Program-made: the position numbers and the translations under genes | Part shown: positions 753 to 24,313 of the stretch, in pieces | How positions within the stretch are numbered: position 1 is the first letter of the stretch | How the letters are laid out: each line of letters begins with the position of its first letter | IMG/VR virus record: IMGVR_UViG_3300008339_000459 | Span: 1-24,398 of that record | Strand: one strand, 5' to 3' | DNA length: 24,398 nucleotides | From: a virus | Notes under the pieces: model-generated | The model's database searches: none | What the model saw: the letters and a program-made list of their open reading frames with translations, nothing else | Told to the model about the DNA's origin: nothing

Positions 753-955
753 TCCTCTTCTCCTGTGGTTTTTAAGACGTAGTCTGATACCTCGTAGACG
801 TATTTCAAGACATCCTCAAGATCAGCCTTGTGTGTAAACTTGCGGTCAACACTGGACTTGATTTCTTGCAATGCCTTGAAGGCTTCATCTGCGTGTATGG
901 CTCTGCGGCACTTCTCAGTATCCTGTGGATAGTTGAATTCGAGTACGGCTTTCAT
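749..955 (-). CDS. Small hypothetical phage protein (MKAVLEFNYP)
   Basis: A 68-residue protein: an N-terminal strand (MKAVLEFNYPQD) followed by two or three amphipathic helices rich in charged residues. Openings of the MKAxLEF type are common in small phage proteins of unknown role. The start at 955 fits that pattern. An in-frame ATG at 967 would add MKAH, and it overlaps an ATTTAAAC copy (966-973). Neither start has a strong Shine-Dalgarno site, so coupling to upstream translation is likely. The stop overlaps the next start as ATGA. Confidence 0.7.
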   Translation of the reverse strand: MKAVLEFNYPQDTEKCRRAIHADEAFKALQEIKSSVDRKFTHKADLEDVLKYVYEVSDYVLKTTGEEE

Positions 956-1121
956 ATGCGCTTTCATTTAAACGCATGAGCAGTCTTGCCTTGCGCCATG
1001 TTTTTGTTACGTCAGTCTTAGAGGCGTCAAGCCACTTAAACTTTGGACTGGTGATGTGCCTGAGCGGCTTCACCATCGTTGGGTTCTGATTGCTCAACTT
1101 CTCGCTTGTCCATATTTCCAT
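915..1121 (-). CDS. Small hypothetical phage protein with a TDVTKTWRKARLLM core
   Basis: A 68-residue, basic protein. The core PKFKWLDASKTDVTKTWRKA resembles short phage proteins with an F-x-Y/W ... TDVxxTWR pattern and no assigned function. The start at 1121 has GGAG about 7 nt upstream. An internal ATG at 1076 would reduce the overlap but has no good ribosome site. It overlaps its upstream neighbour by 86 nt and its downstream neighbour by about 41-53 nt, which is far more than the 1-8 nt typical here. Either it is a genuine overlapping gene or one of the neighbours is called too long. Confidence 0.55.
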   Translation of the reverse strand: MEIWTSEKLSNQNPTMVKPLRHITSPKFKWLDASKTDVTKTWRKARLLMRLNESAYESRTRIQLSTGY

Positions 1122-1305
1122 GATATTGCTCCGTTATCCAAAATCCTGCGTGGTTGATAAGCATCCCGAGGGCCGTCATTTCTTCCGGCGTTCTGCAACG
1201 GCGGTTAACGCCGTGCTCTCCTGTGCGATGCATATCAAACGCAGTGGTGCTGTTGAAGTACTGCTTACATCCTTGGCATTGATTACGACTGCCCGTCAGT
1301 TTCAT
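1036..1305 (-). CDS. Small zinc-finger-like phage protein
   Basis: An 89-residue protein. Residues about 10-37 carry CQGCKQYF, then TAFDMHRTGEHG, then NRRC, giving a Cys2/His2/Cys arrangement that probably binds zinc. The order C-x2-C, F, AFxxHR, RRC, then a methionine-rich segment and GFW is a recurring small zinc-finger protein of phages infecting Burkholderiales and relatives. Its role is unknown, but nucleic-acid binding is plausible. Compared with the typical short form, this one has an extra charged C-terminal tail (about 30 residues after GFW) that lies in the overlap with the next gene. The start at 1305 has a GAGAGGGGG ribosome site. Confidence 0.75.
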   Translation of the reverse strand: MKLTGSRNQCQGCKQYFNSTTAFDMHRTGEHGVNRRCRTPEEMTALGMLINHAGFWITEQYHGNMDKREVEQSEPNDGEAAQAHHQSKV

Positions 1306-1606
1306 GATCTGCCCCCTCTCGCATAAGGCTCTTGCTGACCTCTTGCTCTACCAGTTCTGCAAAAGACAGGCCTGATGGGAAGCGCATCTGGGCGGCTTCG
1401 ATACTGCCCACCACCTTGATGGCCTTGAGCAATCCCTCGTTGAAACCGCTGGTGTATTGATTCCCAGAGGACAGACGGGCATCAATTCCCTCCCGCACAA
1501 TCTGCGTCATTGGCATCTTGTTGGCCTTGGAAAACCGCTTGAGTCTGGCGATGTTCTTGGGCTCAAGGTACGTCATGAATGGTTTGTAATTTGGTGAAAA
1601 TGTCAT
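1283..1606 (-). CDS. Hypothetical protein, ribbon-helix-helix-like N-terminus
   Basis: A 107-residue protein. Residues about 10-45 (MTYLEPKNIARLKRFSKAN, then PMTQIVREGIDARL) follow a strand-helix-helix pattern with the spacing of a ribbon-helix-helix DNA-binding domain. The C-terminal half is helical and acidic. Such proteins often act as small phage regulators, but no target is evident. The start at 1606 has GAGGAAAG upstream. It ends 23 nt inside the next gene. Assignment to the RHH/CopG class is inference from pattern only. Confidence 0.75.
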   Translation of the reverse strand: MTFSPNYKPFMTYLEPKNIARLKRFSKANKMPMTQIVREGIDARLSSGNQYTSGFNEGLLKAIKVVGSIEAAQMRFPSGLSFAELVEQEVSKSLMREGADHETDGQS

Positions 1607-1615
1607 TTTCTTTCC

Positions 1616-2008
1616 TCAGAAAGGGTCTTCCGGCCATTTGTATGTTTCATATTCCTTGACCAGATCATCAAAGATTTGCTTTGCGACCTCGTTGCCGTGC
1701 AGCTCGGTACGGCTTTCAATGCCGCATCGTTTACACAGCTCTACCGCTGCCTCGTTTTCCGTGTTGACCTCAAGGAAGTCATGGAACTTGGATTCTTTGC
1801 AGAGCATCCCTGCCTTCTGAACCCTGTTGGTGTACGGGGTAGCGGACTCGTCATCTTGAATCCGCACCAAAGCACAGCCGTATCGCGCCCCAACGAAGTC
1901 ACGCAGAATCTCTTCCGGGCATTCGTCAGGGTGGATCGCCAGCGTCAAGACAAAACCTGTGCGGTCTTGTTTTAACGCCACCTTTCGTGCTTCAAACTGA
2001 AGTGCCAT
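1616..2008 (-). CDS. Conserved hypothetical phage protein (MALQFEARKVALKQDRTG)
   Basis: A 130-residue protein opening MALQFEARKVALKQDRTGF with a following LTLAIHPDECPEEILRDFVGARYG segment (about residues 22-45). This opening is one I associate with a conserved hypothetical of phage early regions, often close to SSB and annealing proteins. The usual homologue is shorter. Here a C-terminal extension carries a CKRCG motif and an acidic end. It starts 1 nt after the upstream gene's stop and lacks a strong ribosome site, so translational coupling is probable. No enzymatic motif is recognised. Confidence 0.8.
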   Translation of the reverse strand: MALQFEARKVALKQDRTGFVLTLAIHPDECPEEILRDFVGARYGCALVRIQDDESATPYTNRVQKAGMLCKESKFHDFLEVNTENEAAVELCKRCGIESRTELHGNEVAKQIFDDLVKEYETYKWPEDPF

Positions 2009-2009
2009 C

Positions 2010-2734: not shown

Positions 2735-3456
2735 TATTTACTCTCCGAAAGTTGCTTCTTCAGTTCTGCGAAGCGATTGCGAACCCGGTCATAAAGATCG
2801 GGGTGACTTACTTTGAGCCCATCAAGCTGACCTTGATTGGCCTTCCAGTAACTGTTTAAACCTTTGACGTCAGTGCAATGGTTTGTGTATGTCATCATTC
2901 CCTCGGCAAACAACTCTGCGTTTGCATCTGCCTGTCCAGTGTTGACCTGAACATCTGCCATCGCAGTACCGTCTGGAGTCACTGCCTTGACGATTACAGG
3001 CGCTGTTTCTTCGGATTGGGGCAAGTCCTCACCCGCATAGATATACAGGCCTAATCCGTGTAGCGCCAAGCCCTTGGTCATGCAACGCATGATGGCGGTG
3101 TTGATGTTGAAGCTATCGATCTTTTCAACCTTTTCGTTGCCGTACTTGTCTTTAAACTTCCGGCCCTCTATGGAAATGGGCTGGTTGCTACTGTTCATCA
3201 CAGGCAAGAAGCAAGTCATGGGCTTGCCAAACATGGTGACGGTGACCCAGACCATTGCTGTGCCATTGATCTGCATGTAAGGGAATTCCATATAGGTATC
3301 CTGTACTGCATGCCTAAAGGTCTTCACCTCAAACGTGGCGGCAGGGTCAGCCTTCAAGGCTTCTGCCCATGCCCATGCCCATGACAGGTAGGACAGGTTT
3401 TGCTTCTTCTCAACGTGCTCATTCACGTTCAGTTTCAAAAGGTCAAGCTGGGACAT
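2734..3456 (-). CDS. Sak-type single-strand annealing protein (DUF1071/SSAP_Sak)
   Basis: A 240-residue protein. The opening MSQLDLLKLNVNEH, the LSYLSWAWAWAEALKADPAA segment (about residues 21-40), VWVTVTMFGKPMTCFLPVM and the block FNINTAIMRCMTKGLALHGL, followed by GLYIYAGEDLP, are the hallmark of the Sak single-strand annealing family (DUF1071). These proteins anneal complementary single strands in phage recombination. The start at 3456 has AAGGAGA at 6 nt. A longer upstream reading frame exists but lacks family sequence. It overlaps the exonuclease gene by 14 nt, the classic exonuclease plus annealer pair. Confidence 0.9.
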   Translation of the reverse strand: MSQLDLLKLNVNEHVEKKQNLSYLSWAWAWAEALKADPAATFEVKTFRHAVQDTYMEFPYMQINGTAMVWVTVTMFGKPMTCFLPVMNSSNQPISIEGRKFKDKYGNEKVEKIDSFNINTAIMRCMTKGLALHGLGLYIYAGEDLPQSEETAPVIVKAVTPDGTAMADVQVNTGQADANAELFAEGMMTYTNHCTDVKGLNSYWKANQGQLDGLKVSHPDLYDRVRNRFAELKKQLSESK

Positions 3457-4328: not shown

Positions 4329-4763
4329 ATGACTGAGAAACTCAATGATAGTGATGATACAACAGAATTGCAAGCCCTAGTGCAAATTATTTTTGGTGAG
4401 CCAGCATCAAAAAGCAACAGTCGGCGGATGGTGAGGTTTGGAGGGATGTCCCGGCTCATCAAGTCAGAGAAGGCGCTGAGCTACTCGGATATGTTTAAAC
4501 AGCAATGCAAACCGCTGGCCAAGCTCATGACTGGCGACCTCCGGGTGACGCTGCATATCTACTACGCAAGCCGAAGGCCAGACTTGGACGAGACCTTGAT
4601 CCTCGACCTGATGCAGGGGTTAATCTACGAGAACGACCGACAGGTCAAGGAGCGCCATGCGTACTGGGGACTTGACCCAGAGAACCCAAGGGCAGAGATA
4701 TTGATAGAGAAGATTCCAGAGGTTGCCCCAAAAAAGAAACCCCAGCGCAAAGGCCGGGGTTAA
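4329..4763 (+). CDS. rusA: RusA-family Holliday junction resolvase
   Basis: A 144-residue protein. The GEPASKSNSRR segment (about 23-33) and SRRPDLDETLILDLMQGLIY with ENDRQV following (about 81-106) match the RusA signature. D85, D87 and D103 correspond to the catalytic acidic residues. RusA is a homodimer that resolves four-way junctions arising in replication and recombination. The C-terminus is Lys/Arg rich (PKKKPQRKGRG). It is the only rightward gene between the leftward recombination operon and the gene-free region, and its 5' end holds the leftward promoter. A GTTTAAAC copy sits at 4493. Confidence 0.88.
   Translation: MTEKLNDSDDTTELQALVQIIFGEPASKSNSRRMVRFGGMSRLIKSEKALSYSDMFKQQCKPLAKLMTGDLRVTLHIYYASRRPDLDETLILDLMQGLIYENDRQVKERHAYWGLDPENPRAEILIEKIPEVAPKKKPQRKGRG
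4345..4373 (-). promoter_or_regulatory. Leftward sigma70-type promoter inside rusA
   Basis: On the minus strand TTGCAA (4373-4368), a 17-bp spacer and TATCAT (4350-4345) form a good sigma70 match (4/6 and 5/6). A start near 4338 would give a leader of about 28 nt before the exonuclease ATG. The gap between the two divergent genes is only 19 bp, so a promoter inside rusA is expected. Confidence 0.6.
4729..4761 (-). terminator. Leftward intrinsic terminator at the rusA 3' end
   Basis: On the minus strand an AACCCC (4761-4756) / GGGGTT (4743-4738) stem is followed by TTTCTTTTTT. It overlaps the end of rusA. It would stop leftward transcripts entering from the gene-free region and so insulate the downstream leftward promoter. 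Confidence 0.5.
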
Positions 4764-4823
4764 AAGAGAAGCAACTGCAAGGGGGAGTGACCTCGCAGCG
4801 CCAGTGTAAACGAATTGCAGGCA

Positions 4824-4854: not shown

Positions 4855-4925
4855 TACCCTGTTTAAACAAATGTATCTCCAAATCAGCGATTTAAAGTTA
4901 CAGACACGCTCCTGCGGAGGGTGTA

Positions 4926-5708: not shown

Positions 5709-5915
5709 ATGCACACCCTTTTACCAATGAAGTTGCAAACCACTTTGAAGTTTGCCGCCAAGACCAGCCAACTGGATGCGGCCATCCGGATGGTTCAGGA
5801 AGAGCGCCCCGACCTCTTCCACACGGAGACAAGCATCAAGGATCGTGTCTTCTATGATGAGCCTAGAGGCGCATACACCGGAAGCTACATCAACCCCGCA
5901 CCACCCCGCATTTAA
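5709..5915 (+). CDS. Small hypothetical phage protein
   Basis: A 68-residue protein with an N-terminal helical half (LKFAAKTSQLDAAIRMVQEE) and a Tyr/Pro-rich C-terminus (YDEPRGAYTGSYINPAPPRI). It has no recognised domain. An ACTTGGAGGA ribosome site lies upstream. The first ATG (5709) and an internal ATG at 5727 (MKLQTTLKF) are both possible; the first is better spaced from GGAGG. Its TAA stop is part of an ATTTAAAC word (5910-5917), immediately followed by the TTGGAG ribosome site of the next gene. Confidence 0.65.
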   Translation: MHTLLPMKLQTTLKFAAKTSQLDAAIRMVQEERPDLFHTETSIKDRVFYDEPRGAYTGSYINPAPPRI

Positions 5916-5930
5916 ACTTGGAGAACTGAA

Positions 5931-6430: not shown

Positions 6431-6679
6431 ATGCGAGATTACAAACAAGAATACGCCAACTACGATGGCACACCCGAGGTCAAGAAAAAACGGGCGCAGA
6501 GAAACAAAGCCCGAAGAATGCTGGAACGTGAAGGGGTTGTCCGCAAGGGTGACGGCAAGGATGTCGATCACATCGCCCCTCTCAGTAAGGGAGGAACAAC
6601 ATCCCGCAGCAACCTCAGAGCCAAGCCTGCATCGGCCAATCGCTCGTTTAAACGCACCTCCACAGGGGCGATCAAATGA
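6431..6679 (+). CDS. Small HNH-type endonuclease-like protein
   Basis: An 82-residue, strongly basic protein. The N-terminal block MRDYKQEYANYDGTPEVKKK and RAQRNKARRML is typical of small phage HNH proteins. The core RKGDGKDVDHIAPLSKGG followed by SNL and ASANRSF gives the D-H ... N ... N arrangement of an HNH beta-beta-alpha-metal site. The start at 6431 follows TTTAGGAAG; an upstream in-frame ATG at 6341 lacks a ribosome site and family sequence. It overlaps the primase-helicase by ATGA. Such standalone HNH proteins may nick DNA during packaging or replication. GTTTAAAC at 6646 encodes part of SFKR. Confidence 0.75.
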   Translation: MRDYKQEYANYDGTPEVKKKRAQRNKARRMLEREGVVRKGDGKDVDHIAPLSKGGTTSRSNLRAKPASANRSFKRTSTGAIK

Positions 6680-8370
6680 TTGAAGCACTCGTAGCGGATA
6701 CATACTTCAATGATTCGACACGGGTGATCTGCCCATTCTGCACACCAGACCGCAGAAAACAAAACATCAAGGACATGACCCTGACCCGCAAGGATGACGG
6801 GGCCGTTGTCTATCACTGCCACCACTGCTACGCATCGGGTTCAGTGCAACCCAAGGAGAACAAATTGTCCGCAGTCCCTGCCGCAACAATAGTCAACAAC
6901 AGGCTCACCCATCAACATTACCAGTGGCTCAAGTCACGGGGCATATCAGAGATAACCGCAGATGCCATGCGTCTGTTCTCAGCGGAGAAGTTTTTCAGCC
7001 GACTCAGCAAACCAACACAAGCCATCGGCTTCCCCTACTACCGCAGTGGTGCGCTGGTCTCAGCGAAGTACCGAAGCATCGAAGCAAAGGACTTCACGCA
7101 AGACGCAGGGGGCGCACATGATTTCTTTGGCATCGACAAGGTAGAGAAGGGCCAGCCCCTGATCATTGTCGAAGGAGAGATGGATTGCCTCACTGCCATT
7201 GAGGCGGGTATCCACAACGTGGTCAGTGTTCCCGGCGGCGCCCCCGTCAAGGTCGCAGATGGCAAGGTGCTACCAACAGAAGACAAGAAGTTCGGGTTTG
7301 TCTGGAACGCAAGGGAGATCATCGATGCGGCTCCATACGTCATCCTAGCAACAGACCAAGACCCTCCCGGTCAAGCGCTGGCAGAAGAGTTGGCAAGGCG
7401 CATCGGCAAAGAAAAATGCAGACTCGCCAAGTTTGCATGGAAGGATTTAAACGAAGCATGGATGGACGACGACCCGACGGCAGACGACACGCCGACTGAA
7501 CGTTTAAACAAGATCATCAATGACGCAGAGCCGTACCCAATCAACGGCATTTCAGAAGCAACGGCATACCTCGACAAGATCAATGACCTCTACACCAAGG
7601 GATCGGGCAAAGGGTTTAGCACGGGATACCCATCGGTGGATAACATTTACACCGTAGCACCGGGGCAGTTGACTGTGGTCACAGGTTACCCGTCCAGTGG
7701 CAAGTCCAACTTTGTTGACCAGTTGATGGTCAACCTCGCAAGGACATCGGACTGGAAGTTTGCGGTCTGCTCCTTTGAGAATCAACCCGAAGTCCATATC
7801 ACCCGACTCATGGAACTCTACTCGTTCCAATCCTTTTACGAAGGCCGGGATAGGATGAGTCAGAGTGCGAAGGAGATGGCGTTTAAATGGGTCAACGAAC
7901 ATTTTCTTTTCATCGACACCAACGGCGAAGAACCCAGCACCCTTGAGTCAATCCTGACAAGGGCCAAGGCGGCGGTGAAGAGAATGGGGGTGCGTGGTCT
8001 GGTGATTGACCCGTACAACTACATTGAGATGCCGGGGTCAGACAAGAGCGAGACCAATGCCATCAGCGACATCCTGACGAAGGTCAAGAAGTTCTGTATG
8101 GCTCACGATGTACACACATGGTTTGTCGCCCATCCCAGCAAGATCAACCGCTCTGGTGTCGAACAGCCCCGTCCAGACGGGATGTCGATCAGTGGGTCGA
8201 TGGCGTGGTGGGCGAAGACAGACTGTGGCATCACGATCCACAGGAAGGATACGTTTACCGAGTTGGCAGTCTGGAAGTGCCGCTACCGCTGGGTAGGGAC
8301 ACAAGGGGAAACGTCCTTAATCTTCAACAAGACCGCAGGGACGTATTCAGAGAACTTGGATATGTTCTAA
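6676..8370 (+). CDS. DNA primase-helicase (T7 gp4/Twinkle type)
   Basis: A 564-residue protein with the full bifunctional order. The N-terminal zinc finger has C19-P-F-C22 and C48-H-H-C51. A TOPRIM fold carries IIVEGEMD (E166) and ATDQD (D227, D229). A linker leads to a DnaB/RecA-type helicase with Walker A GYPSSGKS (337-344), SFENQPE near 366-372, a Walker-B-like GLVIDPYNYI, and a VAHPSK segment. It would prime lagging-strand synthesis and unwind the replication fork as a hexamer. It overlaps the HNH gene by ATGA and ends at a strong terminator. No DNA polymerase gene is in the window. GTTTAAAC lies at 7502, ATTTAAAC at 7445. Confidence 0.93.
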   Translation: MIEALVADTYFNDSTRVICPFCTPDRRKQNIKDMTLTRKDDGAVVYHCHHCYASGSVQPKENKLSAVPAATIVNNRLTHQHYQWLKSRGISEITADAMRLFSAEKFFSRLSKPTQAIGFPYYRSGALVSAKYRSIEAKDFTQDAGGAHDFFGIDKVEKGQPLIIVEGEMDCLTAIEAGIHNVVSVPGGAPVKVADGKVLPTEDKKFGFVWNAREIIDAAPYVILATDQDPPGQALAEELARRIGKEKCRLAKFAWKDLNEAWMDDDPTADDTPTERLNKIINDAEPYPINGISEATAYLDKINDLYTKGSGKGFSTGYPSVDNIYTVAPGQLTVVTGYPSSGKSNFVDQLMVNLARTSDWKFAVCSFENQPEVHITRLMELYSFQSFYEGRDRMSQSAKEMAFKWVNEHFLFIDTNGEEPSTLESILTRAKAAVKRMGVRGLVIDPYNYIEMPGSDKSETNAISDILTKVKKFCMAHDVHTWFVAHPSKINRSGVEQPRPDGMSISGSMAWWAKTDCGITIHRKDTFTELAVWKCRYRWVGTQGETSLIFNKTAGTYSENLDMF

Positions 8371-8400: not shown

Positions 8401-8626
8401 ATTTCAGCGCATAAAACACGGCGCTGATCACGTTGTCGTATCTACCGCAGATTTGCGGAGTGTCTCTGTGCGTGTAAACGCACCAGTGTAGGCGGATATA
8501 TCTGATGTATCGCTCACCTCGTTTGAACATCTGCGTGGTGTTGTGCAGTTCAAGAAGGTGGTCATACTTGGCGGCTTGTCTTACGAAGTGAGGGCAGGGA
8601 TCAATCAGCGTCTTGACCTTACGCAC
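8399..8626 (-). CDS. Small hypothetical protein, GTG start
   Basis: A 75-residue protein, rich in aromatic and basic residues (FKRGERYIRYIRLHWCVYTH). The full-length start is a GTG at 8626 overlapping the upstream gene's end by 8 nt, with no strong ribosome site. An internal ATG at 8527 (MFKRGERYIRYIRL) is possible. It is the last gene of the leftward operon and ends at the shared terminator. No domain is recognised. GTGTAAAC at 8472 encodes the VYT region. Confidence 0.55.
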   Translation of the reverse strand: MRKVKTLIDPCPHFVRQAAKYDHLLELHNTTQMFKRGERYIRYIRLHWCVYTHRDTPQICGRYDNVISAVFYALK

Positions 8627-9073: not shown

Positions 9074-9198
9074 CATGCCTCCCAGAAAAGGTAGGCCAAC
9101 ATGAAGATGGCAAACAAAACAAAGATCACCGACTCGGCTTGGTCGCTGATGATCTCTCTGTTTAAACGAATGGGTTTGGCTGGGCCTGTGTATTTCAT
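9073..9198 (-). CDS. Single-span membrane microprotein
   Basis: A 41-residue protein. A basic N-terminal tail (MKYTGPAKPIRLNREIISDQ) precedes one hydrophobic segment, SVIFVLFAIFMLAYLFW (about 23-39), so it is likely an inner-membrane protein with a cytoplasmic N-terminus. The start uses the GGAGAGACAGC ribosome cassette, and the ATGA overlaps on both sides argue that it is real. It could be a holin-like, exclusion or membrane-anchor protein, but its position far from any lysin gives no support for lysis. GTTTAAAC at 9160 encodes RLN. Confidence 0.7.
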   Translation of the reverse strand: MKYTGPAKPIRLNREIISDQAESVIFVLFAIFMLAYLFWEA

Positions 9199-13465: not shown

Positions 13466-13478
13466 GGTTTATCTCCGT

Positions 13479-14054: not shown

Positions 14055-14087
14055 ATCGTTTCTCCAATGATAGTGATTGTACAGTGT

Positions 14088-14402
14088 TTAAATGGAAGGG
14101 GTCAACACTTTGTTGAAACGCTCAGACCCGACACGCTCAATGAGGGCATCGATCTGGGCTTGGGCAAGGCCTCGGATGTCACGCAAGAGCATCCCGTTGC
14201 TGGAGCAGGGCACACCCTTGTATTGGCCCTGAACGTGCAAGACCTTGCCGCCGGAGCGGGGGTCAGACACAACCCAGAAACCGAGGCTGTCCTTGTGGAG
14301 GTGGAGGGTGTGGGTCACCGCCCCGGCATGGCAGACCAAGAGGTGTGACTTGGCGGTGGAGATTTCAGAGCCGTCCTTGCGGCGCAGGGTGATGGTAGGC
14401 AT
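14088..14402 (-). CDS. Hypothetical protein, beta-rich
   Basis: A 104-residue protein with many short strands (TITLRRKDGSEIS, HTLHLHKDSLGFWVVSD, KVLHVQGQYKGV) and a C-terminal helix (QIDALIERVGSERFNKVL). It has no recognised domain. AAGGAA lies 5 nt from the start. The TAA stop is part of GTTTAAAT (14086-14093). It lies 33 bp upstream of the SprT-like gene in the operon. Confidence 0.72.
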   Translation of the reverse strand: MPTITLRRKDGSEISTAKSHLLVCHAGAVTHTLHLHKDSLGFWVVSDPRSGGKVLHVQGQYKGVPCSSNGMLLRDIRGLAQAQIDALIERVGSERFNKVLTPSI

Positions 14403-14465
14403 GAGGTTCCTTTCGGTTGTTTAAACGGGTTGCACTCCAATGCCCCGCAGGGCATCAGGCTGAAA

Positions 14466-15071: not shown

Positions 15072-15102
15072 ATGATATCACTAGTGTGTAAACAGGTGTC
15101 AA
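15072..15102 (-). promoter_or_regulatory. Leftward promoter of the SprT/AAA+/VWA operon
   Basis: On the minus strand TTGACA (15102-15097), a 19-bp spacer and TATCAT (15077-15072), preceded by TGA as an extended -10. The spacer holds a GTTTACAC word (15093-15086) and part of the palindrome CACTAGTG (15080-15087), so a regulator could block it. The 19-bp spacer is long, which weakens the call. Confidence 0.5.
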
Positions 15103-15296: not shown

Positions 15297-15308
15297 AACG
15301 GCCAGCAA

Positions 15309-15370: not shown

Positions 15371-15461
15371 CGTTTAAATCGATTCTAGAGCCATGTATCT
15401 TTATACAGTACTAGCTTACATTCGGTGGCTACAGTAGCACTCAGGTACACAGAAAAGAGGG

Positions 15462-15557: not shown

Positions 15558-15610
15558 GCGAACGAAGCTGTGTAAACGCACAGGCTGGATGAAACCACAG
15601 GAGTGAAACC

Positions 15611-16249
15611 ATGAGCGATACCGAAAAGGCCGGGAGGGCATCGAAAGATGAACTGTTGGCGGCACTGGAAGCGGCACACTTGCCGGGGGATGAATGGGAG
15701 GATGAAGGCCCGGAACTCAGCGAAGCGGAACGGTTGGCGGCTCATGCAGAACCTCCAGTAATAAGGGTAGATGGGAAACCAAGAGGGAGTGAAGACTACA
15801 AGAGAGTGCATCCTCTCACGCCATCAGCAATGGAGTTCGCAAAGGGCATGATCATTGGGAAAACAATGAGGCAAGCCTACAGGGATGCATACCCCAACGC
15901 CAAGGGAAGTGATCAGGTAATCACATCAGCGGCATACAGACTAAGCAGAGATCAGAGGATACAGAAGATACTCCAAGAGGCTTGGGGTGAGACAGTGGAA
16001 GTGCTGGCAGAGGATACCGCCGCATCCAAACGGTATGTGCTGAAGGAACTGTTGGCACTCAGCAAAGGAGCCAAGCAGGAAGGCTCTCGGTTGAAAGCAC
16101 TGGAACTGATGGGCAGAGCCGCAGGAATGTTCCAGCAGAGCACTGAAGTGGTGGCAGACAAGCCAACAGCAGAGCAGTTGCGTAAGGAACTCTCAGGGCA
16201 TCTCAAGCTACTGGACAACGTGAAGCCTCTCAAGCGCAAGGCCGTGTAA
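15611..16249 (+). CDS. Terminase small subunit
   Basis: A 212-residue protein. An acidic N-terminal tail (1-70) precedes LTPSAMEFAKGMIIGKTMRQ and AYRDAYPNAKGSD with AYRLSRDQRIQKIL (about 73-124), the helix-turn-helix arrangement of many small terminase subunits, in which a DNA-binding helical domain is followed by a helical oligomerisation region (VLKELLALSKGAKQEGSRLK). It would recognise the packaging start site and feed DNA to TerL. AGGAG lies 8 nt before the start. The last codons GTG-TAA are inside a GTGTAAAC word. TerL follows after the small winged-helix gene. Confidence 0.82.
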   Translation: MSDTEKAGRASKDELLAALEAAHLPGDEWEDEGPELSEAERLAAHAEPPVIRVDGKPRGSEDYKRVHPLTPSAMEFAKGMIIGKTMRQAYRDAYPNAKGSDQVITSAAYRLSRDQRIQKILQEAWGETVEVLAEDTAASKRYVLKELLALSKGAKQEGSRLKALELMGRAAGMFQQSTEVVADKPTAEQLRKELSGHLKLLDNVKPLKRKAV

Positions 16250-16294
16250 ACGCTGGGAGGAGGATCGGTCATCAGCGTGTAAACGGCTGGGAAG
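16244..16294 (+). repeat. Direct repeat around GTGTAAAC after TerS
   Basis: GTGTAAACGCTGGGAGG (16244-16260) is repeated as GTGTAAACGGCTGGGAAGG (16277-16295). The units are 33 bp apart; the first contains the TerS stop codon. It looks like a small duplication carrying the window-wide word. Confidence 0.6.
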
Positions 16295-16438: not shown

Positions 16439-16452
16439 CAGAAACACCTTGC

Positions 16453-16461: not shown

Positions 16462-16483
16462 TTTGTGCGTTTAAACTCTCGGC

Positions 16484-16717
16484 ATGTTGAAAGATAAACA
16501 TCAATTGGTTCTGGACTTCATCCGTGCGTATGTGCGTTTACACGGCGTGCCGCCGTCGTATTCCGTGATTGCTCGGGGGTTAGGGATGAAGAGCAAGTCA
16601 AACATCCACAGGGTGATCCACATCCTTCAGGATGAGGGGCTCTTGGTGACCAAGCCGCACAAGTTCAATTCGATCAAGCTATTGGATAAGACGGTGAAGG
16701 GGGTAGCCTCCCTATGA
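16484..16717 (+). CDS. LexA-type winged-helix DNA-binding protein, no protease domain
   Basis: A 77-residue protein. MLKDKHQLVLDFIRAYVRLH then GVPPSYSVIARGLGMKSKSN and IHRVIHILQDEGLL follow the N-terminal winged-helix domain of LexA almost along its whole length (helix, 'G.PPS...IA..LG..S...I...I..L...G.L'). The C-terminal autoprotease domain is absent, so it cannot self-cleave. It sits between TerS and TerL and overlaps TerL by ATGA, an unusual place for a repressor. It could instead be a packaging or late-transcription factor. The ribosome site is weak (CTCGGC), so expression may be low. Confidence 0.75.
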   Translation: MLKDKHQLVLDFIRAYVRLHGVPPSYSVIARGLGMKSKSNIHRVIHILQDEGLLVTKPHKFNSIKLLDKTVKGVASL

Positions 16718-18210
16718 TGACCCGGCAGGAAGTGGAGAGATACCGGGAACTGATCCCTCTCGTCGCAGATGATGAGAGAGCAAAGATCATGATGTTGTTG
16801 GAATACGACAGAGTGGAGAAGTGCAAAGAGTCCTTCATCTATTTTGCGTCCCACATGTGGCCGGGGTTTATTTCCGGGAAGCACCACCAGATCATGGCCA
16901 ACGCTTTTGAGCGTGTGGCCAAGGGGGAGCTTAAGAGGCTCATCATCAACATGCCTCCTCGGCATACCAAGTCTGAGTTTGCCTCGTATCTCCTCCCAGC
17001 ATGGTTCTTAGGTAAGTATCCGGAGAAGAAGATCATTCAGACGGCCCACACCGCAGAGCTTGCGGTGGGCTTTGGCCGGAAGGTGAGGAACCTTGTGTCC
17101 TCCGAAACCTTTTCCCGGGTGTTTGACACCAAGCTCTCTTCTGATTCAAAAGCCGCAGGAAGGTGGAACACCGGAGCCGGAGGTGATTACTTCGCTATCG
17201 GCGTTGGGGGAGCCGTCACGGGTAAGGGTGCGGACCTACTCATCATTGATGACCCGCATTCTGAGCAGGAAGCCAAGCAGGGTAACCCCGCAGTCTTTGA
17301 TAATGTGTATGAGTGGTACACATCTGGCCCTCGGCAGCGTTTACAGCCGGGGGGAGCCATTATTATTGTGATGACACGCTGGTCAAAGAGAGATTTGACC
17401 GGGCAGATTCTCAAAAACTCGGAAAAAGACGGCGTAAATGAGTGGGAGGTGATTGAATTTCCCGCTATTTTGCCGTCTGGATCGCCTTTATGGCCCGGAT
17501 TTTGGAAGAAAGAGGAACTCGAAGCTATTAAAGCTGAGATTCCCGTCTCTAAATGGGAAGCGCAGTACCAACAGAACCCCACATCCGAGGGAAATGCGAT
17601 TATCAAGCGCGACCACTGGCGGATTTGGGAGTCTGATGTCGCTCCGCAGTGCGAATATATTATCCAAAGCTGGGATACCGCATTTGAAAAATCAAATCGG
17701 GCAGATTATTCAGCTTGCACAACATGGGGTGTCTTCCAACACCCCAACCAACAAGGCGATTTGAAGCCAAACATCATCTGTCTGGACGCAGTGAAGGCTC
17801 GTATGGAGTTTCCGGAGCTGAAACAGAAGGCTCTTGAGATGTACAAGGAATGGGAGCCAGACACATTGATTGTGGAAAAGAAGGCCGCTGGCGCTCCGCT
17901 CATCTATGAGCTAAGGCAGATGGGAATTCCTCTTTCAGAGTACACACCGGGCAAAGGAAGCGATAAGATTGCGCGTGTAAACGCAATCTCGGACCTTTTT
18001 GCCTCGGGAGTTGTTTGGTGCCCAGAAACAAGATGGGCAGATGAGTTGATGGAAGAGCTGGCGGCGTTCCCTAACGGGGACAACGACGACCTTGTTGACT
18101 CCTCAAGCCAAGCTCTGCTTCGGTTTAGAAGGGGAGGCTTTATCCCGATTGAATCGGATGAGCCGGATGAACAGCGGTATTTTCGCCGCAAGAGTAACGC
18201 CTTCTATTAA
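16714..18210 (+). CDS. Terminase large subunit
   Basis: A 498-residue protein. The ATPase has a Walker-A-like PPRHTKSE (81-88), Walker B LLIIDDPHSE (175-184) and the coupling motif VMTRW (219-223). The C-terminal RNase-H-like nuclease shows SWDTAF (D321), IVEKKAAG (E388) and GDNDDLVDS (D458/D459), the three acidic clusters for metal binding. The length is normal for the family. It cuts concatemers and drives DNA through the portal encoded next. Starts at 16714 and 16717 are equally possible (ATGATG); the former gives an ATGA overlap. GTGTAAAC occurs at 17975. Confidence 0.95.
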   Translation: MMTRQEVERYRELIPLVADDERAKIMMLLEYDRVEKCKESFIYFASHMWPGFISGKHHQIMANAFERVAKGELKRLIINMPPRHTKSEFASYLLPAWFLGKYPEKKIIQTAHTAELAVGFGRKVRNLVSSETFSRVFDTKLSSDSKAAGRWNTGAGGDYFAIGVGGAVTGKGADLLIIDDPHSEQEAKQGNPAVFDNVYEWYTSGPRQRLQPGGAIIIVMTRWSKRDLTGQILKNSEKDGVNEWEVIEFPAILPSGSPLWPGFWKKEELEAIKAEIPVSKWEAQYQQNPTSEGNAIIKRDHWRIWESDVAPQCEYIIQSWDTAFEKSNRADYSACTTWGVFQHPNQQGDLKPNIICLDAVKARMEFPELKQKALEMYKEWEPDTLIVEKKAAGAPLIYELRQMGIPLSEYTPGKGSDKIARVNAISDLFASGVVWCPETRWADELMEELAAFPNGDNDDLVDSSSQALLRFRRGGFIPIESDEPDEQRYFRRKSNAFY

Positions 18211-18219: not shown

Positions 18220-20721
18220 ATGGCAGCATCAGATATGGTCCCCGGTATTGGTGGAGCCCCTATGGGATTTCCCTCTGGCCTTGAAGACATCCAGCAAGAC
18301 AACAGCCCCGCAGTTGAGATCATGATTGATAACCCGGATGATGTTGAAATTGGCATCGACGGCGTGACCATCGACCTCATGCCAGAGGAAGAGACTGCGG
18401 AAGATTTCGGCGCAAACCTTGCCGAATACATGGATGAGGGTGAGCTGGGTAAATTGGCCAGCGACCTTATCGGCGAATATGAAAGCGATGTCGCCTCCCG
18501 CAAAGACTGGGCAGACATGTATGTCCGAGGGCTTGAAGTGCTGGGCATGAAGTATGAAGAGCGCACAGAGCCTTGGACTGGAGCCTGCGGGGTTTACTCA
18601 ACAGTCCTGACGGAAGCTGCCATCCGGTTTCAGTCAGAGACCATCATTGAGACCTTCCCGGCCCAAGGTCCGGTCAAGACGCAGATCATCGGCGCAATCG
18701 ACAAACTCAAAGAAGACGCAGCCGAGCGTGTCCGCACCGACATGAACTACAAGCTGACCGAGCAAATGCCTGAGTACCGCTCAGAGCACGAGAGGATGCT
18801 CTACAACTTGGGTCTGGCAGGCTCAGCCTTCAAGAAGGTTTATTTTGACCCCAGCCTCGGCAGGCAAGTCGCTTTCTTCATCCCCGCAGAAGACCTGATA
18901 ATTCCCTATGGAGCCTCGAACTCCCGCACCGCAGAACGTGTTACCCATGTCATGCGCAAGACAAAGAATGAGATCAAAAAACTTCAGGTCTCGGGTTTTT
19001 ACCGCGATGTTGATCTGGGCGAGCCCCAGATGTTCAGCACCGACATTGAAAAGAAAAAGGCCGAAGAGCAGGGCTATGATTTAAACGAAGACAACCGCTA
19101 CCAGCTTCTGGAGATGTGCGTTGACTACGACATGCCCGGCTATGAGGATGAGGATGAGATTGCCGTTCCCTATGTTGTAACTATCGACAGAGCCACCACA
19201 AAGATTCTGTCTATCCGCCGCAACTGGAACGAGGAAGACAAGCTCAAGCTGCGCCGTCAGCATTTTGTGCAGTACACCTACATCCCCGGCTTTGGCGTCT
19301 ATGGTCTGGGCCTGATCCACGTTATCGGCGGCTATGCCCGTGCGGGAACTTCCATCATTCGTCAGTTGGTGGACGCAGGCACATTGGCCAACCTGCCCGG
19401 CGGTGTGAAGACCCGTGGCATGCGCATCAAGGGAGATGACACACCCATCTCTCCCGGCGAGTGGCGTGATGTGGACCTCCCATCCGGCACTATGCGCGAC
19501 AACCTAATGCCGCTGCCATACAAAGAACCATCTCAGGTTCTGGCTGGGTTGCTTGAACGCATCACAGAAGAGGCTCGCAGGCTCGGCTCAGTCGCAGACA
19601 TGAAGGTCAGCGACATGGGTGCAAACGCACCCGTGGGCACGACTCTGGCTCTTTTGGAGCGCCAGCTCAAGACCATGAGCGCGGTTCAGGCGCGTGTACA
19701 CAACTCAATGAAAGAGGAGTTTAAACTTCTCAAAGAAATCATCCGGGACAACACCCCGGAAGAGTATGACTACATGCCCATGGGCGGTAAGCCTGCCGCC
19801 AAGCGGGCAGACTATGACCTCGTCGAGGTAATCCCAGTCTCTGATCCAAACAGCGCCACTATGGCCCAGCGGATCATGCAGTACCAAGCTGTAATTCAGT
19901 TGTCTGCGCAGGCCCCTCAAATCTATGACCTGCCGCAGTTGCACCGTCAGATGATTGAGGTTTTAGGAATCAAGAACGCAGACAAGCTTGTGCCGATTGA
20001 TGATGACATGAGGCCTCGTGACCCAGTCTCGGAGAACATGGCTTTCCTGAACGGAAAACCCACCAAGGCGTTTATCTACCAAGACCATGACGCCCACATC
20101 GCAGTCCACACAGCCTTAATGCAAGACCCATTGATGGCTGCGCAGATAGGCCAGAACCCACAAGCCCAGAAGATGCAGGCCGAAATCACGGCTCACATCT
20201 CAGAGCACTTGGCGTTTGCGTACCGCAAGAAAGTTGAAGAGCAGCTTGGTGTGCCCATGCCTGCGCCTGATGAGAACTTGCCGGAGGATGTCGAGGTGCA
20301 GTTGTCTCGTTTGGTCGCTCAAGCCTCTCAGCAGGTGCTGGCCCAGAGTAAGGGACAAGTGGCCCAGCAGCAGGCCCAGCAGCAAGCTCAAGACCCGCTC
20401 ATCCAGATGCAGCAACAAGAGTTGCAGATCAAGATGAAGGACGCCGAGATCAAGGCTATGAAGGTCAGGGGCGATCTCCAGCTCAGGGCAGAAGAGCTGG
20501 GCCTCAAAGCCCGAGAGGCCGCTCAAAAGGTTGGAGAAGACCCAGAGCTTGCATATCAGCGGATGCAGACAGAAATCTCCCAGATGCAAGAGATGCATGC
20601 CATGGAAATGGCTGCCAAGCAGCAGCAGCTAATGATCCAGCAGCAAGAGGCCCAGCAAAAGATGGCGCAGCAAGCAGCACCTCAACAAGGAACGCCCCCA
20701 GCAGGCGGTAGGAGCCAATAA
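18220..20721 (+). CDS. Portal protein with long Gln-rich C-terminal extension
   Basis: An 833-residue protein. The central part includes WTGACGVYSTVLTEAAIRFQ, FPAQGPVKTQIIG, GLAGSAFKKVYFDPS and FIPAEDLIIPYGASN, typical of a large portal family in environmental podo- and siphoviruses. Residues about 690-833 form a coiled-coil, glutamine-rich tail with QQQAQQQAQ-type runs, more likely a barrel or internal extension than a separate enzyme. The portal is the dodecameric DNA gate for packaging and ejection. It starts 10 nt after TerL with GGAA upstream and ends TAATG into the next gene. GTTTAAAC lies at 19719. Confidence 0.88.
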   Translation: MAASDMVPGIGGAPMGFPSGLEDIQQDNSPAVEIMIDNPDDVEIGIDGVTIDLMPEEETAEDFGANLAEYMDEGELGKLASDLIGEYESDVASRKDWADMYVRGLEVLGMKYEERTEPWTGACGVYSTVLTEAAIRFQSETIIETFPAQGPVKTQIIGAIDKLKEDAAERVRTDMNYKLTEQMPEYRSEHERMLYNLGLAGSAFKKVYFDPSLGRQVAFFIPAEDLIIPYGASNSRTAERVTHVMRKTKNEIKKLQVSGFYRDVDLGEPQMFSTDIEKKKAEEQGYDLNEDNRYQLLEMCVDYDMPGYEDEDEIAVPYVVTIDRATTKILSIRRNWNEEDKLKLRRQHFVQYTYIPGFGVYGLGLIHVIGGYARAGTSIIRQLVDAGTLANLPGGVKTRGMRIKGDDTPISPGEWRDVDLPSGTMRDNLMPLPYKEPSQVLAGLLERITEEARRLGSVADMKVSDMGANAPVGTTLALLERQLKTMSAVQARVHNSMKEEFKLLKEIIRDNTPEEYDYMPMGGKPAAKRADYDLVEVIPVSDPNSATMAQRIMQYQAVIQLSAQAPQIYDLPQLHRQMIEVLGIKNADKLVPIDDDMRPRDPVSENMAFLNGKPTKAFIYQDHDAHIAVHTALMQDPLMAAQIGQNPQAQKMQAEITAHISEHLAFAYRKKVEEQLGVPMPAPDENLPEDVEVQLSRLVAQASQQVLAQSKGQVAQQQAQQQAQDPLIQMQQQELQIKMKDAEIKAMKVRGDLQLRAEELGLKAREAAQKVGEDPELAYQRMQTEISQMQEMHAMEMAAKQQQLMIQQQEAQQKMAQQAAPQQGTPPAGGRSQ

Positions 20722-21309: not shown

Positions 21310-22254
21310 ATGGCAGAAATGGAAAAAGTTGAATTTGAGTTCCCGGATGAAGCGGAAGAAAAAAATCCTCGTGAAGGCGGCAGGGTTGTAGAGCCCGAGC
21401 CAGAAATTGAGGTTGTTGACGACACCCCGGAACAAGACAGAAACCGCACACCTCAAGACCCTCCAAAAGAGGTTACCGACGAGGAGTTGGAAAAATACAC
21501 CGACCAGCGGCTTAAAACCCGCTTGGCCCATTTGGGTCGCGGTTATCACGACGAGCGCAGAGCAAAGGAGATGGCCCTTCGAGAAAAAGAAGAGGCTATT
21601 AAGCTGGCTCAGCAGATTGTTGAAGAGAACAAAAAACTCAAAGGCAGTCTGCATCAAGGCCAAAGTGCGCTTCTTGAGCAGGCCAAGAAGGTCGTTGCCA
21701 ATGAAATGAAGGAGGCCAAGGACAAGTTCAAGGCAGCCTACGAAAGTGGCGACGCCGAGGCGCTGACCGCAGCCCAAGAGGAAATGACCTCTGTAAAGAT
21801 GAAGCTTGAGCGTGTAAACAATTTCAAGCCAGCCCCTTTACAGGAAGAAAAAATTGAGGTACAACCGCCTCAATCGCCTCCAGCGATTCAGTTGGATGAC
21901 AAAACTCGTAATTGGACAGAAAAGAATACGTGGTTTGGACCCAACAAGAAAATGACGGCCTATGCATTGGGTCTTCATGATGAGCTGGTTGCAAAAGGAT
22001 ATTCCTCTGGAAGCGACGATTACTACAAAGAAATCGACGCAGAAATGAGAAATCGTTTTTCAGATGTATTCGAGTCTGATAAACCGGGAGATGCTACTTC
22101 TCTCCCGAAAAGATCGAATGTTGTTGCACCGGCAACGAGAAGTACTGCTCCCCGAAAGGTCGTACTTACCAAATCGCAGGTGGAAATCGCCAAGCGGCTC
22201 GGCGTTCCTTTGGAACTCTATGCTCGTAAGGTTGCGGAAGAAATGAGGAAATGA
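21310..22254 (+). CDS. Capsid scaffolding-like protein
   Basis: A 314-residue protein, highly charged and without cysteine. An acidic disordered N-terminus (1-55) precedes a long coiled coil (about 60-175, e.g. EKEEAIKLAQQIVEENKKLK). A proline-rich linker and a small globular part (NTWFGPNKKMTAYALGLHDE) follow, and the basic C-terminal helix (RKVVLTKSQVEIAKRLGVPL) resembles the capsid-binding tail of scaffolds. The position between portal and major capsid supports this. AAGGAA precedes the start. It ends ATGA over the next gene. Confidence 0.78.
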   Translation: MAEMEKVEFEFPDEAEEKNPREGGRVVEPEPEIEVVDDTPEQDRNRTPQDPPKEVTDEELEKYTDQRLKTRLAHLGRGYHDERRAKEMALREKEEAIKLAQQIVEENKKLKGSLHQGQSALLEQAKKVVANEMKEAKDKFKAAYESGDAEALTAAQEEMTSVKMKLERVNNFKPAPLQEEKIEVQPPQSPPAIQLDDKTRNWTEKNTWFGPNKKMTAYALGLHDELVAKGYSSGSDDYYKEIDAEMRNRFSDVFESDKPGDATSLPKRSNVVAPATRSTAPRKVVLTKSQVEIAKRLGVPLELYARKVAEEMRK

Positions 22255-22730: not shown

Positions 22731-23327
22731 ATGGCTTACCCCACCGTTTCGGCACCCTATGGCCTTCTGCCTATCAATCGTATTGATGGCATGCCATACG
22801 CAGGTGCAATCCGTCAGATTCCCGTAGCCGCTGGCTTCGGCACCGCCATTTTCAATGGCGATACCGTAGTCATCAACAGCGATGGTTATCTCGTCAAATC
22901 AACCACAACCAACTCCGGCGACATCGTTGGCGTTTGTGTTGGCGGTCAGTACGTGAACTCGAGCGGCCAAACCGTTCAAGGGCAGTACATCCCCGCAGGT
23001 CAATCGACCTCCACCAACTATGCTTACGCCTACGTTGTGGATGACCCAATGGCTTTGTTCAAAGTCGCAGTTGTGACTTCGGGCACTACCATGGGTACTG
23101 CTGGTCGTACCGTTGTTGGCTCTAACTTGGCGCTCGTTTTGAACGCTGGTAACACCAACACTGGCAACTCTGCTTTCGCCGTCACTTTGACCGGCGCAGG
23201 CACTACCGCCACTATCCCAATCCGTGTGATCGACGTTGTGCCAGAGACAGCTACTGCCGCTGACACTTACACCGAGCTGTTGGTGAAAATCAACACACAC
23301 CAGTACAACGACACCACTGGTGTTTAA
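22731..23327 (+). CDS. Capsid decoration-like structural protein
   Basis: A 198-residue protein, rich in Thr, Gly, Ala and Val and beta-rich, with no lysine-rich DNA-binding tail. The opening APYGLLPINRIDGMPYAGAI and QIPVAAGFGTAIFNGDTVVI matches a family found just before capsid genes, probably an outer-head or decoration protein. TTGGAG lies 7 nt upstream. The codon choice shifts to C/T-ending, well-translated codons, as in the capsid gene, which suggests high expression. Confidence 0.8.
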   Translation: MAYPTVSAPYGLLPINRIDGMPYAGAIRQIPVAAGFGTAIFNGDTVVINSDGYLVKSTTTNSGDIVGVCVGGQYVNSSGQTVQGQYIPAGQSTSTNYAYAYVVDDPMALFKVAVVTSGTTMGTAGRTVVGSNLALVLNAGNTNTGNSAFAVTLTGAGTTATIPIRVIDVVPETATAADTYTELLVKINTHQYNDTTGV

Positions 23328-23337
23328 GGAGTAAATC

Positions 23338-24246
23338 ATGGCTATTTCACGCGCACAACTGCTGAAAGAACTGCTCCCCGGCCTGAACGCTTTGTTTGGT
23401 CTGGAGTACGCCAAGTACGGCGAGCAGCACAAGGAAATCTACGAGACCGAGACTTCGGAGCGTAGCTTTGAAGAGGAAACCAAGCTGTCTGGATTCAACG
23501 CCGCTCCGGTGAAGAACGAAGGCGCTGCCATTGCTTATGACAATGCGCAAGAAGCTTGGACTGCACGTTACAACCACGAAACCATTGCGATGGGCTTCTC
23601 CATCACTGAGGAAGCTGTGGAAGATAACTTGTACGACAGCCTCTCCAGCCGCTACACCAAGGCTCTGGCCCGTGGTATGGCTTACACCAAGCAAGTCAAA
23701 TCCGCTTATGTGTTGAACAATGCGTTCACCGCTGGCGTGACTTATGGTGACGGCGTTACCCTGTGCTCGACCGCTCACCCTCTGGTGTCCGGTGGTGTAA
23801 ACAGCAACCGTCCAGCCACTGCTGCCGACTTGAACGAAACATCGTTGGAAAACGCTGTTATTCAGATCGCAGCTTGGACAGACGAACGTGGTCTGTTGAT
23901 CGCCGCCAAGCCTAAAAAGCTGGTTGTTCCCCCATCGCTGCAATTCGTTTCCACTCGTTTGTTGGAAACTGAACTGCGTGTTGGCACAGCGGACAACGAC
24001 ATCAACGCCATCAAAAACAACGGTTCCATCCCCGGTGGTTACACAGTCAACAACTTCTTGACTGATCCCAACGCTTGGTTCCTGTTGACTGATGTGCCAA
24101 ACGGCCTGAAGCACTTTGTTCGTACTCCCCTCCAGAACTCCATGGATGGTGATTTCGACACTGGCAACGTCCGTTACAAGGCCCGCGAGCGTTATTCGTT
24201 CGGCGTGTCCGATCCATTGGGTATCTTCGGTTCTCCCGGAGCTTAA
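23338..24246 (+). CDS. Major capsid protein, Mu gpT-like
   Basis: A 302-residue protein. ELLPGLNALFGLEYAKYGEQ, ETKLSGFNAAPVKNEGAAIA, ARYNHETIAMGFSITEEAVE, then VTLCSTAHPLVSGGVN and LLETELRVGTADNDINAIKN are typical of Mu-like gpT (HK97-fold) capsid proteins, with a C-terminal VRYKARERYSFGVSDPLGIF. It is about 300 residues with no evident long delta domain, in line with a separate scaffold gene. AAGGAG gives a strong start. It is followed directly by a terminator. GTGTAAAC at 23795. Confidence 0.93.
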   Translation: MAISRAQLLKELLPGLNALFGLEYAKYGEQHKEIYETETSERSFEEETKLSGFNAAPVKNEGAAIAYDNAQEAWTARYNHETIAMGFSITEEAVEDNLYDSLSSRYTKALARGMAYTKQVKSAYVLNNAFTAGVTYGDGVTLCSTAHPLVSGGVNSNRPATAADLNETSLENAVIQIAAWTDERGLLIAAKPKKLVVPPSLQFVSTRLLETELRVGTADNDINAIKNNGSIPGGYTVNNFLTDPNAWFLLTDVPNGLKHFVRTPLQNSMDGDFDTGNVRYKARERYSFGVSDPLGIFGSPGA

Positions 24247-24253
24247 TGGTGAG

Positions 24254-24283
24254 AAAAAAAGAGGGGGCTTAGGCCCCCTTTTT
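24254..24283 (+). terminator. Strong intrinsic terminator after the capsid gene
   Basis: A GGGGGC/GCCCCC stem (24263-24268/24273-24278) with a TTAG loop, preceded by seven A (24254-24260) and followed by five T (24279-24283). It is nearly symmetric, so it may act in both directions. Confidence 0.85.
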
Positions 24284-24284
24284 G

Positions 24285-24313
24285 TTGCGTTGGTTTAAAC
24301 GCAGTGATATATT
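24285..24313 (+). promoter_or_regulatory. Possible promoter for the gene beyond the window
   Basis: An extended -10, TGA-TATATT (24308-24313), lies 17 bp after a weak -35, TTGCGT (24285-24290). A GTTTAAAC word (24293-24300) lies in the spacer, as in the leftward promoter near 15090. Confidence 0.4.

Follow-up and report, generated by a model that had tools for sequence, protein, structure and literature searches.

Sites in the window

The virus record IMGVR_UViG_3300008339_000459, a stretch of 24,398 bases that was analysed whole and is called here the window, contains many copies of the palindromic octamer GTTTAAAC and of its close variants GTGTAAAC and ATTTAAAC. We counted 14 exact copies of GTTTAAAC, as given in a preliminary description made from the sequence alone, against a mean of 0.28 and a largest value of 2 in 100 dinucleotide shuffles. 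It is the top-ranking 8-mer of the window, where the runner-up palindromes have 4 copies. The many one-base variants reported in that description were also recovered, with 40 places at no more than one mismatch to GTTTAAAC against 6.3 expected; its count of seven ATTTAAAC was right for both strands together, and its 11 copies of GTGTAAAC become 12 (10 on the plus strand and 2 on the minus strand).

Twelve of these 33 sites are, by coordinate, at positions conserved among relatives. In the left part of the window, GTGTAAAC lies in gene 749-967 (832..839, plus strand), with ATTTAAAC at the start of the same gene (966..973, plus), and again in gene 1616-2008 (1729..1736, minus; position occupied in 11 of 19). 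GTTTAAAC is found in the genes for a Sak-like annealing protein (2854..2861; position occupied in 11 of 20 dereplicated relatives) and a RusA-like protein (4493..4500; 14 of 22 dereplicated relatives). Between 4763 and 5490 there is one GTGTAAAC (4804..4811, plus) and one exact GTTTAAAC (4861..4868). Close to where the HNH gene ends, a GTTTAAAC stands 22 bp before the start of the primase-helicase gene (6646..6653), which itself carries ATTTAAAC at 7445..7452 (plus; 18 of 32) and 7881..7888 (minus; 24 of 32) as well as GTTTAAAC at 7502..7509 (8 of 32). Further sites are a GTGTAAAC in gene 8399-8626 (8472..8479, plus), a GTTTAAAC in a region with small leftward genes (9160..9167), two GTTTAAAC in the VWA/CobT-like gene, one of them near its end (10407..10414, 15 of 39; 10914..10921, 31 of 39), and one in the MoxR-like ATPase gene (12667..12674; 23 of 64).

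As had been described, the stop codons of four genes lie inside the word or a variant. GTTTAAAC covers that of the SprT-like gene at 13479-14054, 11 bp before the MoxR-like gene start (13477..13484), GTGTAAAC that of the gene named TerS at 15611-16249, 240 bp before the start of a LexA-like gene (16244..16251, plus), and ATTTAAAC those of genes 14088-14402 (14086..14093, minus) and 5709-5915 (5910..5917, plus). Gene 14088-14402 also has a GTTTAAAC 16 bp upstream (14419..14426). In the divergent intergenic region that follows there are a GTGTAAAC (15086..15093, plus) and a ATTTAAAC (15372..15379, minus), and another GTGTAAAC stands between a cluster of DnaA boxes and TerS (15570..15577, plus). 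Around the LexA-like gene, GTGTAAAC occurs 207 bp before its start (16277..16284, plus) and within it (16536..16543, minus), and GTTTAAAC directly upstream (16469..16476). Downstream, GTGTAAAC occupies codons 421-423 of TerL (17975..17982, plus; 86 of 91 dereplicated relatives), part of gene 21310-22254 (21812..21819, plus; 25 of 89) and part of the capsid gene (23795..23802, plus), where no position is conserved; the portal gene carries ATTTAAAC (19079..19086, plus) and GTTTAAAC (19719..19726; 41 of 118), and a last GTTTAAAC is 46 bp after the capsid gene (24293..24300).

The candidate promoters placed around sites at 15086, 15570 and 24293 in the preliminary description found little backing. 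A simple sigma-70 scan of 14400-16720 gave one match, at 15530-15557, against 2.0 expected, with none at 15086, and there was also none in 23900-24398. The sole match overlaps two perfect DnaA boxes, and the region just before TerS (15455-15565) holds four perfect DnaA boxes (TTATCCACA, in both orientations) and imperfect ones in an origin-like cluster. Each of ten long records of related phages has 1 to 5 perfect DnaA boxes, clustered in several of them. The window had no match in Rfam.

The word marks a clade of phages

Relatives were collected as 290 loci from four scans, to which the window was added; the first scan, of IMG/VR with TerL, gave 80 loci. Loci overlap, since the same contig can have more than one locus id, and they share ancestry; the number of loci is therefore not a number of independent events. 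Genes were called with a greedy open reading frame caller in the counting scripts. L001-L004, which are pieces of the window, were left out of the relative counts, and L195, L196 and the record pieces L085-L130 and L197-L211 were left out from the counts by TerL identity class onward. Cultured outgroup phages were counted over their first 50,000 bases, and G027 up to base 60,000 of 60,008.

In the 80 loci pooled with the window, and against an order-3 Markov expectation, GTTTAAAC is 17.5-fold, GTGTAAAC 10.8-fold and ATTTAAAC 4.3-fold over-represented, and the remaining one-base changes of the left half-site stand at 0.35 to 1.26-fold. The flanking preference proposed from the window is real, but shorter than the GCG..CGC suggested: relatives have mainly a pyrimidine (Y) before the word and a purine (R) after it. 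Two other words, TATATATA and GAACGTTC, are strongly over-represented in pooled relatives, at slightly less than one copy per locus.

Grouping by TerL identity gave the limits of the excess. Compared with the dinucleotide expectation, the three words are 21.0-fold over-represented in the 204 sequences that combine a LexA-like gene with a TerL identity of 78% or more, 10.1-fold in five further loci of that TerL class without the gene, all of which start inside TerL or no more than 182 bp from it, and 7.2-fold in two loci at 65–78% that have the gene. Among loci lacking it, the ratio of observed to expected copies is 0.7 at 65–78% (10 loci), 0.8 at 55–65% (43 loci), 1.4 at 40–55% (9 loci) and 0.2 below 40% (18 loci). 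Nor is there an excess within the first 50,000 bases of the cultured relatives DSL-LC04, 023Pt_psg01, HTVC027P, HTVC023P and Pag-Yong1. The structural genes of the window have relatives among these five phages and 62 outgroup loci, of which 20 include over 5 kb of sequence before TerL; its left-half genes have none there, save that a single small gene is matched in L283 and DSL-LC04 and that Pag-Yong1 gives five distant matches. The word thus marks a phage clade, and could serve as a simple sequence mark for spotting clade members in metagenomes.

Selection on the word and fixed positions

The preliminary description had set a codon-aware background as a check on the excess, which we carried out by permuting synonymous codons inside every predicted gene, in 50 rounds. 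The excess persists: genes of the window contain 9 copies of GTTTAAAC against 1.0 in the shuffles (maximum 2), and 12 of GTGTAAAC against 1.1 (maximum 4). For instance, GTTTAAAC occurs 26 times against 1.4 in G002 and 32 times against 2.8 in G013, and it surpasses the shuffle maximum in 14 of 17 records; it does not in G007 and G016, whose favoured words are different, or in the outgroup DSL-LC04. Codon or amino-acid usage is therefore ruled out as the cause. Copies of GTTTAAAC inside genes are about equally divided between the two stop-free codon phases (142 against 136).

One fixed position is in TerL, whose codons 421-423 read CGT GTA AAC in 198 of 208 clade loci and CGT GTA AAT in 7; the first of these two readings is found in none of 63 outgroup loci. 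Arg-Val-Asn is kept in 19 of the 63, of which 6 read CGT GTA AAT and 16 use GTA. Among 56 TerL genes with less than 95% DNA identity (mean pairwise 75%), Arg421 is CGT in 98%, Val422 GTA in 98% and Asn423 AAC in 95%, and GTA is the rarest valine codon in these genes. The background of codon constancy, from 155 conserved columns with at least four codons, has a median of 48% and a 95th percentile of 86%. Other fixed sites are at codons 324 (26 of 32) and 402 (24 of 32) of the primase-helicase gene, codon 360 of the VWA-like gene (31 of 39) and codon 55 of the RusA-like gene (14 of 22). In all, 10 of 18 genes have at least one position above the conservation threshold; no conserved position was found in the other eight (Exo, SprT, LexA-like, 20902, 22251, 22731, the major capsid protein and the ribbon-helix-helix gene). 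Together, these results show that the DNA word itself is under selection, across a large group of environmental phages and strongly enough to fix codons in a terminase gene.

Number, preferred word and spacing of the sites

The degenerate pattern RTKTAMAY occurs 54 to 95 times (0.83 to 1.51 per kb) in each of the ten long records, of 57.8 to 64.8 kb. Part of each count is due to chance because the pattern is degenerate, as a reversed-pattern control gave 16 in G033 (54 sites) and 9 in G034 (92 sites). GTTTAAAC and GTGTAAAC are favoured in seven of the ten. Of the others, G028 has 34 ATTTAAAC and 2 GTTTAAAC, G027 favours ATGTAAAC and GTGTAAAT, and G033 favours ATTTAAAC, ATGTAAAT and ATTTAAAT; likewise, the shorter record G007 has 22 ATTTAAAC, 8 ATTTAAAT and no GTTTAAAC. 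Some lineages have thus switched the favoured member of RTKTAMAY while the number of sites was roughly kept.

The spacing code suggested in the preliminary description found no counterpart, since in none of the ten long records are gaps more regular than random at the 5% level (G029 and G030 reach 0.06), and in several they are more clustered than random. Density is also uneven; in G001, for example, the six bins of 3 kb that precede TerL hold 25 sites, and the fourteen that follow it hold 20.

Position of the sites relative to genes

In 12 records, 81 sites are located 60 to 10 bp before gene starts against 37 expected, and 56 are within 10 bp of gene ends against 17 expected, an enrichment that arises in part because the word contains TAA. 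There is no bias in the orientation of GTGTAAAC relative to the gene in which it lies (84 with, 74 against).

Over 72 loci, the densest 250-bp bin in the 9 kb around the LexA-like gene is the one adjoining that gene upstream, with 7.9 sites per kb, and the second-densest corresponds to the TerL site. Just before the LexA-like gene, many loci have pairs of sites 10 to 31 bp apart. The same interval of the window, from TerS to the LexA-like gene (16410-16484), also contains a CCCCCCGGGGG stretch, TATATATAT and CGAACGTTCG, which could be a promoter or a packaging site.

Candidate proteins

The leading candidate to read the sites is a LexA-type winged-helix protein of 77 amino acids, encoded at 16484..16717 (plus strand) between TerS and TerL, just before the latter. 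It matches Pfam LexA_DNA_bind above the cut-off (E 1.9e-9) and has profile matches to LexA structures. Its AlphaFold2 model has a mean predicted local distance difference test score of 75, falling below 60 from about residue 61, and the best PDB matches of the model are the LexA-DNA complexes 3jso/3jsp (Foldseek, 3jso_B, E 4.2e-5). No C-terminal peptidase domain was found in it with Pfam. All 15 clade records of the first survey have the gene. So do 206 of the 221 sequences whose TerL identity is 65% or more; the remaining 15 comprise 5 that are cut at TerL and 10 from the outgroup free of the excess.

Across 73 loci, distances between LexA-like proteins correlate with distances in word preference (r 0.33, partial 0.33), against partial values of -0.02 for TerS, 0.15 for SprT and -0.19 for TerL. 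Mantel tests over 18 records, uncorrected for the 15 families tested, gave r 0.41 (p 0.008) for the LexA-like family and r 0.34 (p 0.022) for the Sak-like one; 12 of the 15 had p above 0.05, among them the ribbon-helix-helix, zinc-finger, HNH, MoxR and TerS families.

Two other proteins of the window are candidates. The second is an Arc-like ribbon-helix-helix protein at 1283..1606 (minus strand; PHROG 2639, E 0.0013; Pfam RHH_3, E 0.016, below the cut-off). The third is the product of 15611..16249 (plus), present in 15 of 15 clade records and without a match in Pfam, to which the name TerS was given from its position. A helix-turn-helix gene at 2010-2408 was rejected, as it has no match in the site-rich records G005, G013 and G018. 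We also discarded the idea that loss of a basic residue in the wing of the LexA-like protein explains the preference for ATTTAAAC, because L232-L234 favour this word and, by eye, retain a basic residue at that place. Two cultured phages with LexA-like proteins, Synechococcus phage Yong-M2-251 and Pelagibacter phage Hodr, have no excess of the words, but these proteins are too distant to make an informative independent test. Another small protein of the window, at 1036-1305, has a CxxC...FDxHR motif that we take to be zinc-finger-like, and is found in 26 clade sequences.

Interpretation and alternatives

We consider it highly probable that the word has been selected as a site that some DNA-reading protein recognises. 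The best supported of the readings offered in the preliminary description is a binding site, for a protein of phage or host, dispersed in the manner of stoperators, given the fixed positions, the switching of words between lineages and the enrichment near gene starts; methylation is poorly supported and a spacing code is unsupported. From this pattern we infer protein binding, the identity of the protein and its effect on transcription, as follows. A sequence-specific DNA-binding protein linked to the clade would recognise a dispersed site that has the word, as (Y)GTKTAAAC(R), for its core. Where this protein binds near a gene start, the site would serve as an operator; inside or between genes the protein would be a roadblock to RNA polymerase. 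One protein could in this way tune transcription of the whole genome, as with stoperators, and it would most likely be the 77-amino-acid LexA-type protein, which in many lineages may also regulate its own gene. A genome-wide system of operators and roadblocks would be expected to leave sites with fixed places and a symmetric core, in excess before gene starts and clustered ahead of a regulator gene. The arguments for and against a transcriptional, operator- or stoperator-like role seem to us evenly balanced, and we would lean neither way on the complete account, that is, a dispersed, position-conserved site that tunes transcription genome-wide with the LexA-like protein as its most likely reader.

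Several observations weigh against this account. Of 618 sites of the three words in 12 records, 509 are within predicted genes and 109 not wholly within them. No tyrosine or serine recombinase was found (PF00589 in 9 records, PF00239 in 13, in records that may be incomplete), which makes an integrating temperate phage seem less likely and leaves no evident lysogeny to maintain. In TerL, columns 203, 209, 219 and 415 are also more than 90% codon-constant, and therefore the TerL site is not the sole constrained place; moreover, GTA is common at Val422 in the outgroup. The LexA-like gene is not singled out by its presence and absence, because nearly all other left-half genes are also missing from outgroups, and word distance correlates more strongly with distance between RusA-like proteins, one of the 15 families (r 0.50, p 0.002). 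A LexA-type dimer would not usually target a palindrome of 8 bp that has no gap. Furthermore, L079 lacks a site from -450 to +260 of the LexA-like gene, the nearest site is at least about 380 bp before it in L216, L217 and L219, and L234 has none for more than 2 kb before it. Finally, the LexA-like proteins of L217, G033, L216 and L219 are nearly identical, yet L217 and G033 favour ATTTAAAT, ATTTAAAC and ATGTAAAT, whereas L216 and L219 favour GTTTAAAC and GTGTAAAC.

L217 is a natural recombinant with its junction around 6500, just before the LexA-like gene. Its stretch with this gene and TerL is 92–93% identical in DNA to L216 and L219, and its left part, where the other word is used, is mostly 64–75% identical to them. 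The LexA-like protein of G033, a long record, has three differences from those of L216 and L219, near the protein start. These two cases, of which only G033 is in the 18-record set, contradict the LexA-like protein as sole determinant of the word. The mismatch of words in L217 and G033 and the missing nearby sites in five loci therefore make the LexA-like protein a leading but unproven reader, and that it reads the sites is a plausible assignment which we make tentatively, with doubt slightly prevailing.

With regard to the other constrained columns of TerL, Thr203 ACA, Arg209 CGT, Val219 GTG and Gly415 GGA are nearly codon-invariant in the 56 genes and might be DNA or RNA elements.

Alternatively, the reader of the sites could be not a transcription regulator but a nucleoid or packaging protein of the phage, by which the phage DNA is marked or folded for selective packaging, replication or protection. 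A protein of this kind would fit sites that are genome-wide and mostly in coding sequence (509 of 618), a number that is roughly kept while the word drifts, and a candidate gene between TerS and TerL. The excess at gene starts does not agree with it, nor do the irregular gaps and the uneven density (25 sites before TerL and 20 after it in G001), and we regard it as unlikely.

A regulator or nucleoid protein of the host might also read the word, which would then change with a change of host, as could be thought from the different words of phages with nearly identical LexA-like proteins and from the fact that no phage protein tested predicts the word well. There is, however, no excess in a Burkholderiales metagenome-assembled genome (GTKTAAAC 90 times forward against 155 for the reversed control), the only bacterial assembly with a relative, whose status as host is unproven. 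In addition, the outgroup loci L288 and L321 share an IMG sample number, though not necessarily a host, with L005 and L008; L321 has one site word and neither GTTTAAAC nor GTGTAAAC, and the L288 record has one GTTTAAAC in 63,669 bases. Such a host reader appears quite unlikely to us. The relative in that assembly is the LexA-like relative L195, on a 5-kb contig, which may point to the host or be phage sequence binned there by mistake.

Hot spots of recombination or junction resolution, either Chi-like or favoured by a RusA-like resolvase, are suggested by the RusA-like family, with which word distance correlates best (r 0.50, p 0.002), and by the genes for a Sak-like annealing protein and an exonuclease, also in the window. 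The RusA-like family is, however, one of 15 tested, the RusA-like protein of G028 is 81% identical to that of the window and goes with a different word, and strict conservation of position is not expected from hot spots, all of which renders them very improbable.

Even less credible is a palindrome related to methylation or restriction, as proposed for HIP1 (PMC4390886), with which the clade word shares the form of a palindromic octamer at about one per kb with lineage-specific switching. Its positions are fixed, and no match to PF02086 or PF00145 was found in 13 long records nor to PF01555 in 9, other methyltransferase families and host enzymes not having been searched; a Dam-like match appeared in only 1 of 13. 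That match (G021:C1:4134-4565) has one in-frame TGA.

Lastly, a by-product of codon or amino-acid usage, or chance, has no supporting point and can be dismissed, being refuted by the codon shuffles and also by the excess over dinucleotide and Markov expectations and the codon constancy in TerL.

Comparison with known systems

The candidate reader belongs, by sequence family and fold, with the DNA-binding domain of LexA, and differs from LexA in having only 77 amino acids, without a C-terminal protease and dimerisation domain. LexA boxes have a gapped form that is absent from the clade word.

HIP1 (GCGATCGC) of cyanobacteria, to which the preliminary description likened the word, is also an over-represented palindromic octamer that is replaced by other words in some lineages (PMC4390886). 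The likeness holds for the form (palindromic octamer, about one per kb, switching) and fails for the carrier and for a matching methyltransferase: HIP1 belongs to cyanobacterial genomes and is nearly coextensive with methyltransferases, whereas the clade word belongs to phages in which no common methyltransferase was found (four Pfam families searched, one match in one record).

SPBRE, of the Bacillus prophage SPbeta, was also a repeat first found by sequence, and its reader, the master repressor MrpR, was identified later, as told in PMC10516654, so that it is a precedent for a repeated element known before its reader. Unlike the clade word, SPBRE is there a 15-bp motif at promoter regions, and the fold of its reader is that of a tyrosine recombinase and not a winged helix.

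As for the dispersed binding site that we favour, its nearest known kind, in behaviour, is that of the stoperators of the cluster A mycobacteriophages L5 and Bxb1. As described in PMC6550527 and PMC9283540, stoperators are many copies of one short site across a phage genome, related phages use similar, non-identical versions, and a site near the repressor gene has been proposed to serve autoregulation; the clade also has sites near a candidate regulator gene. Stoperators are described there as 13-bp, asymmetric, mostly in one orientation relative to transcription and up to 30 per genome. All ten long records of the clade exceed 20 dispersed copies, with 54–95 RTKTAMAY each. Unlike stoperators, however, the clade sites have an 8-bp palindromic core without orientation bias (GTGTAAAC 84 against 74) and are mostly inside genes, and no integrase was found.

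Among the papers retrieved in literature searches, judged by title and start of the abstract, none treated this word in phages, and a search on phiC31 repeats gave the same outcome. It is conceivable, if doubtful, that an integrase-less clade with a genome-wide array of symmetric and mostly position-fixed protein sites, near one per kb, and with a drifting word represents a new way of marking or controlling a whole genome, neither lysogenic stoperators nor a methylation signal. Should the sites be a dispersed operator system, it would be one from beyond the mycobacteriophages and Bacillus prophage that the cited papers treat, and its lineage-specific words would be a natural experiment on the joint change of a reader and dozens of its sites.

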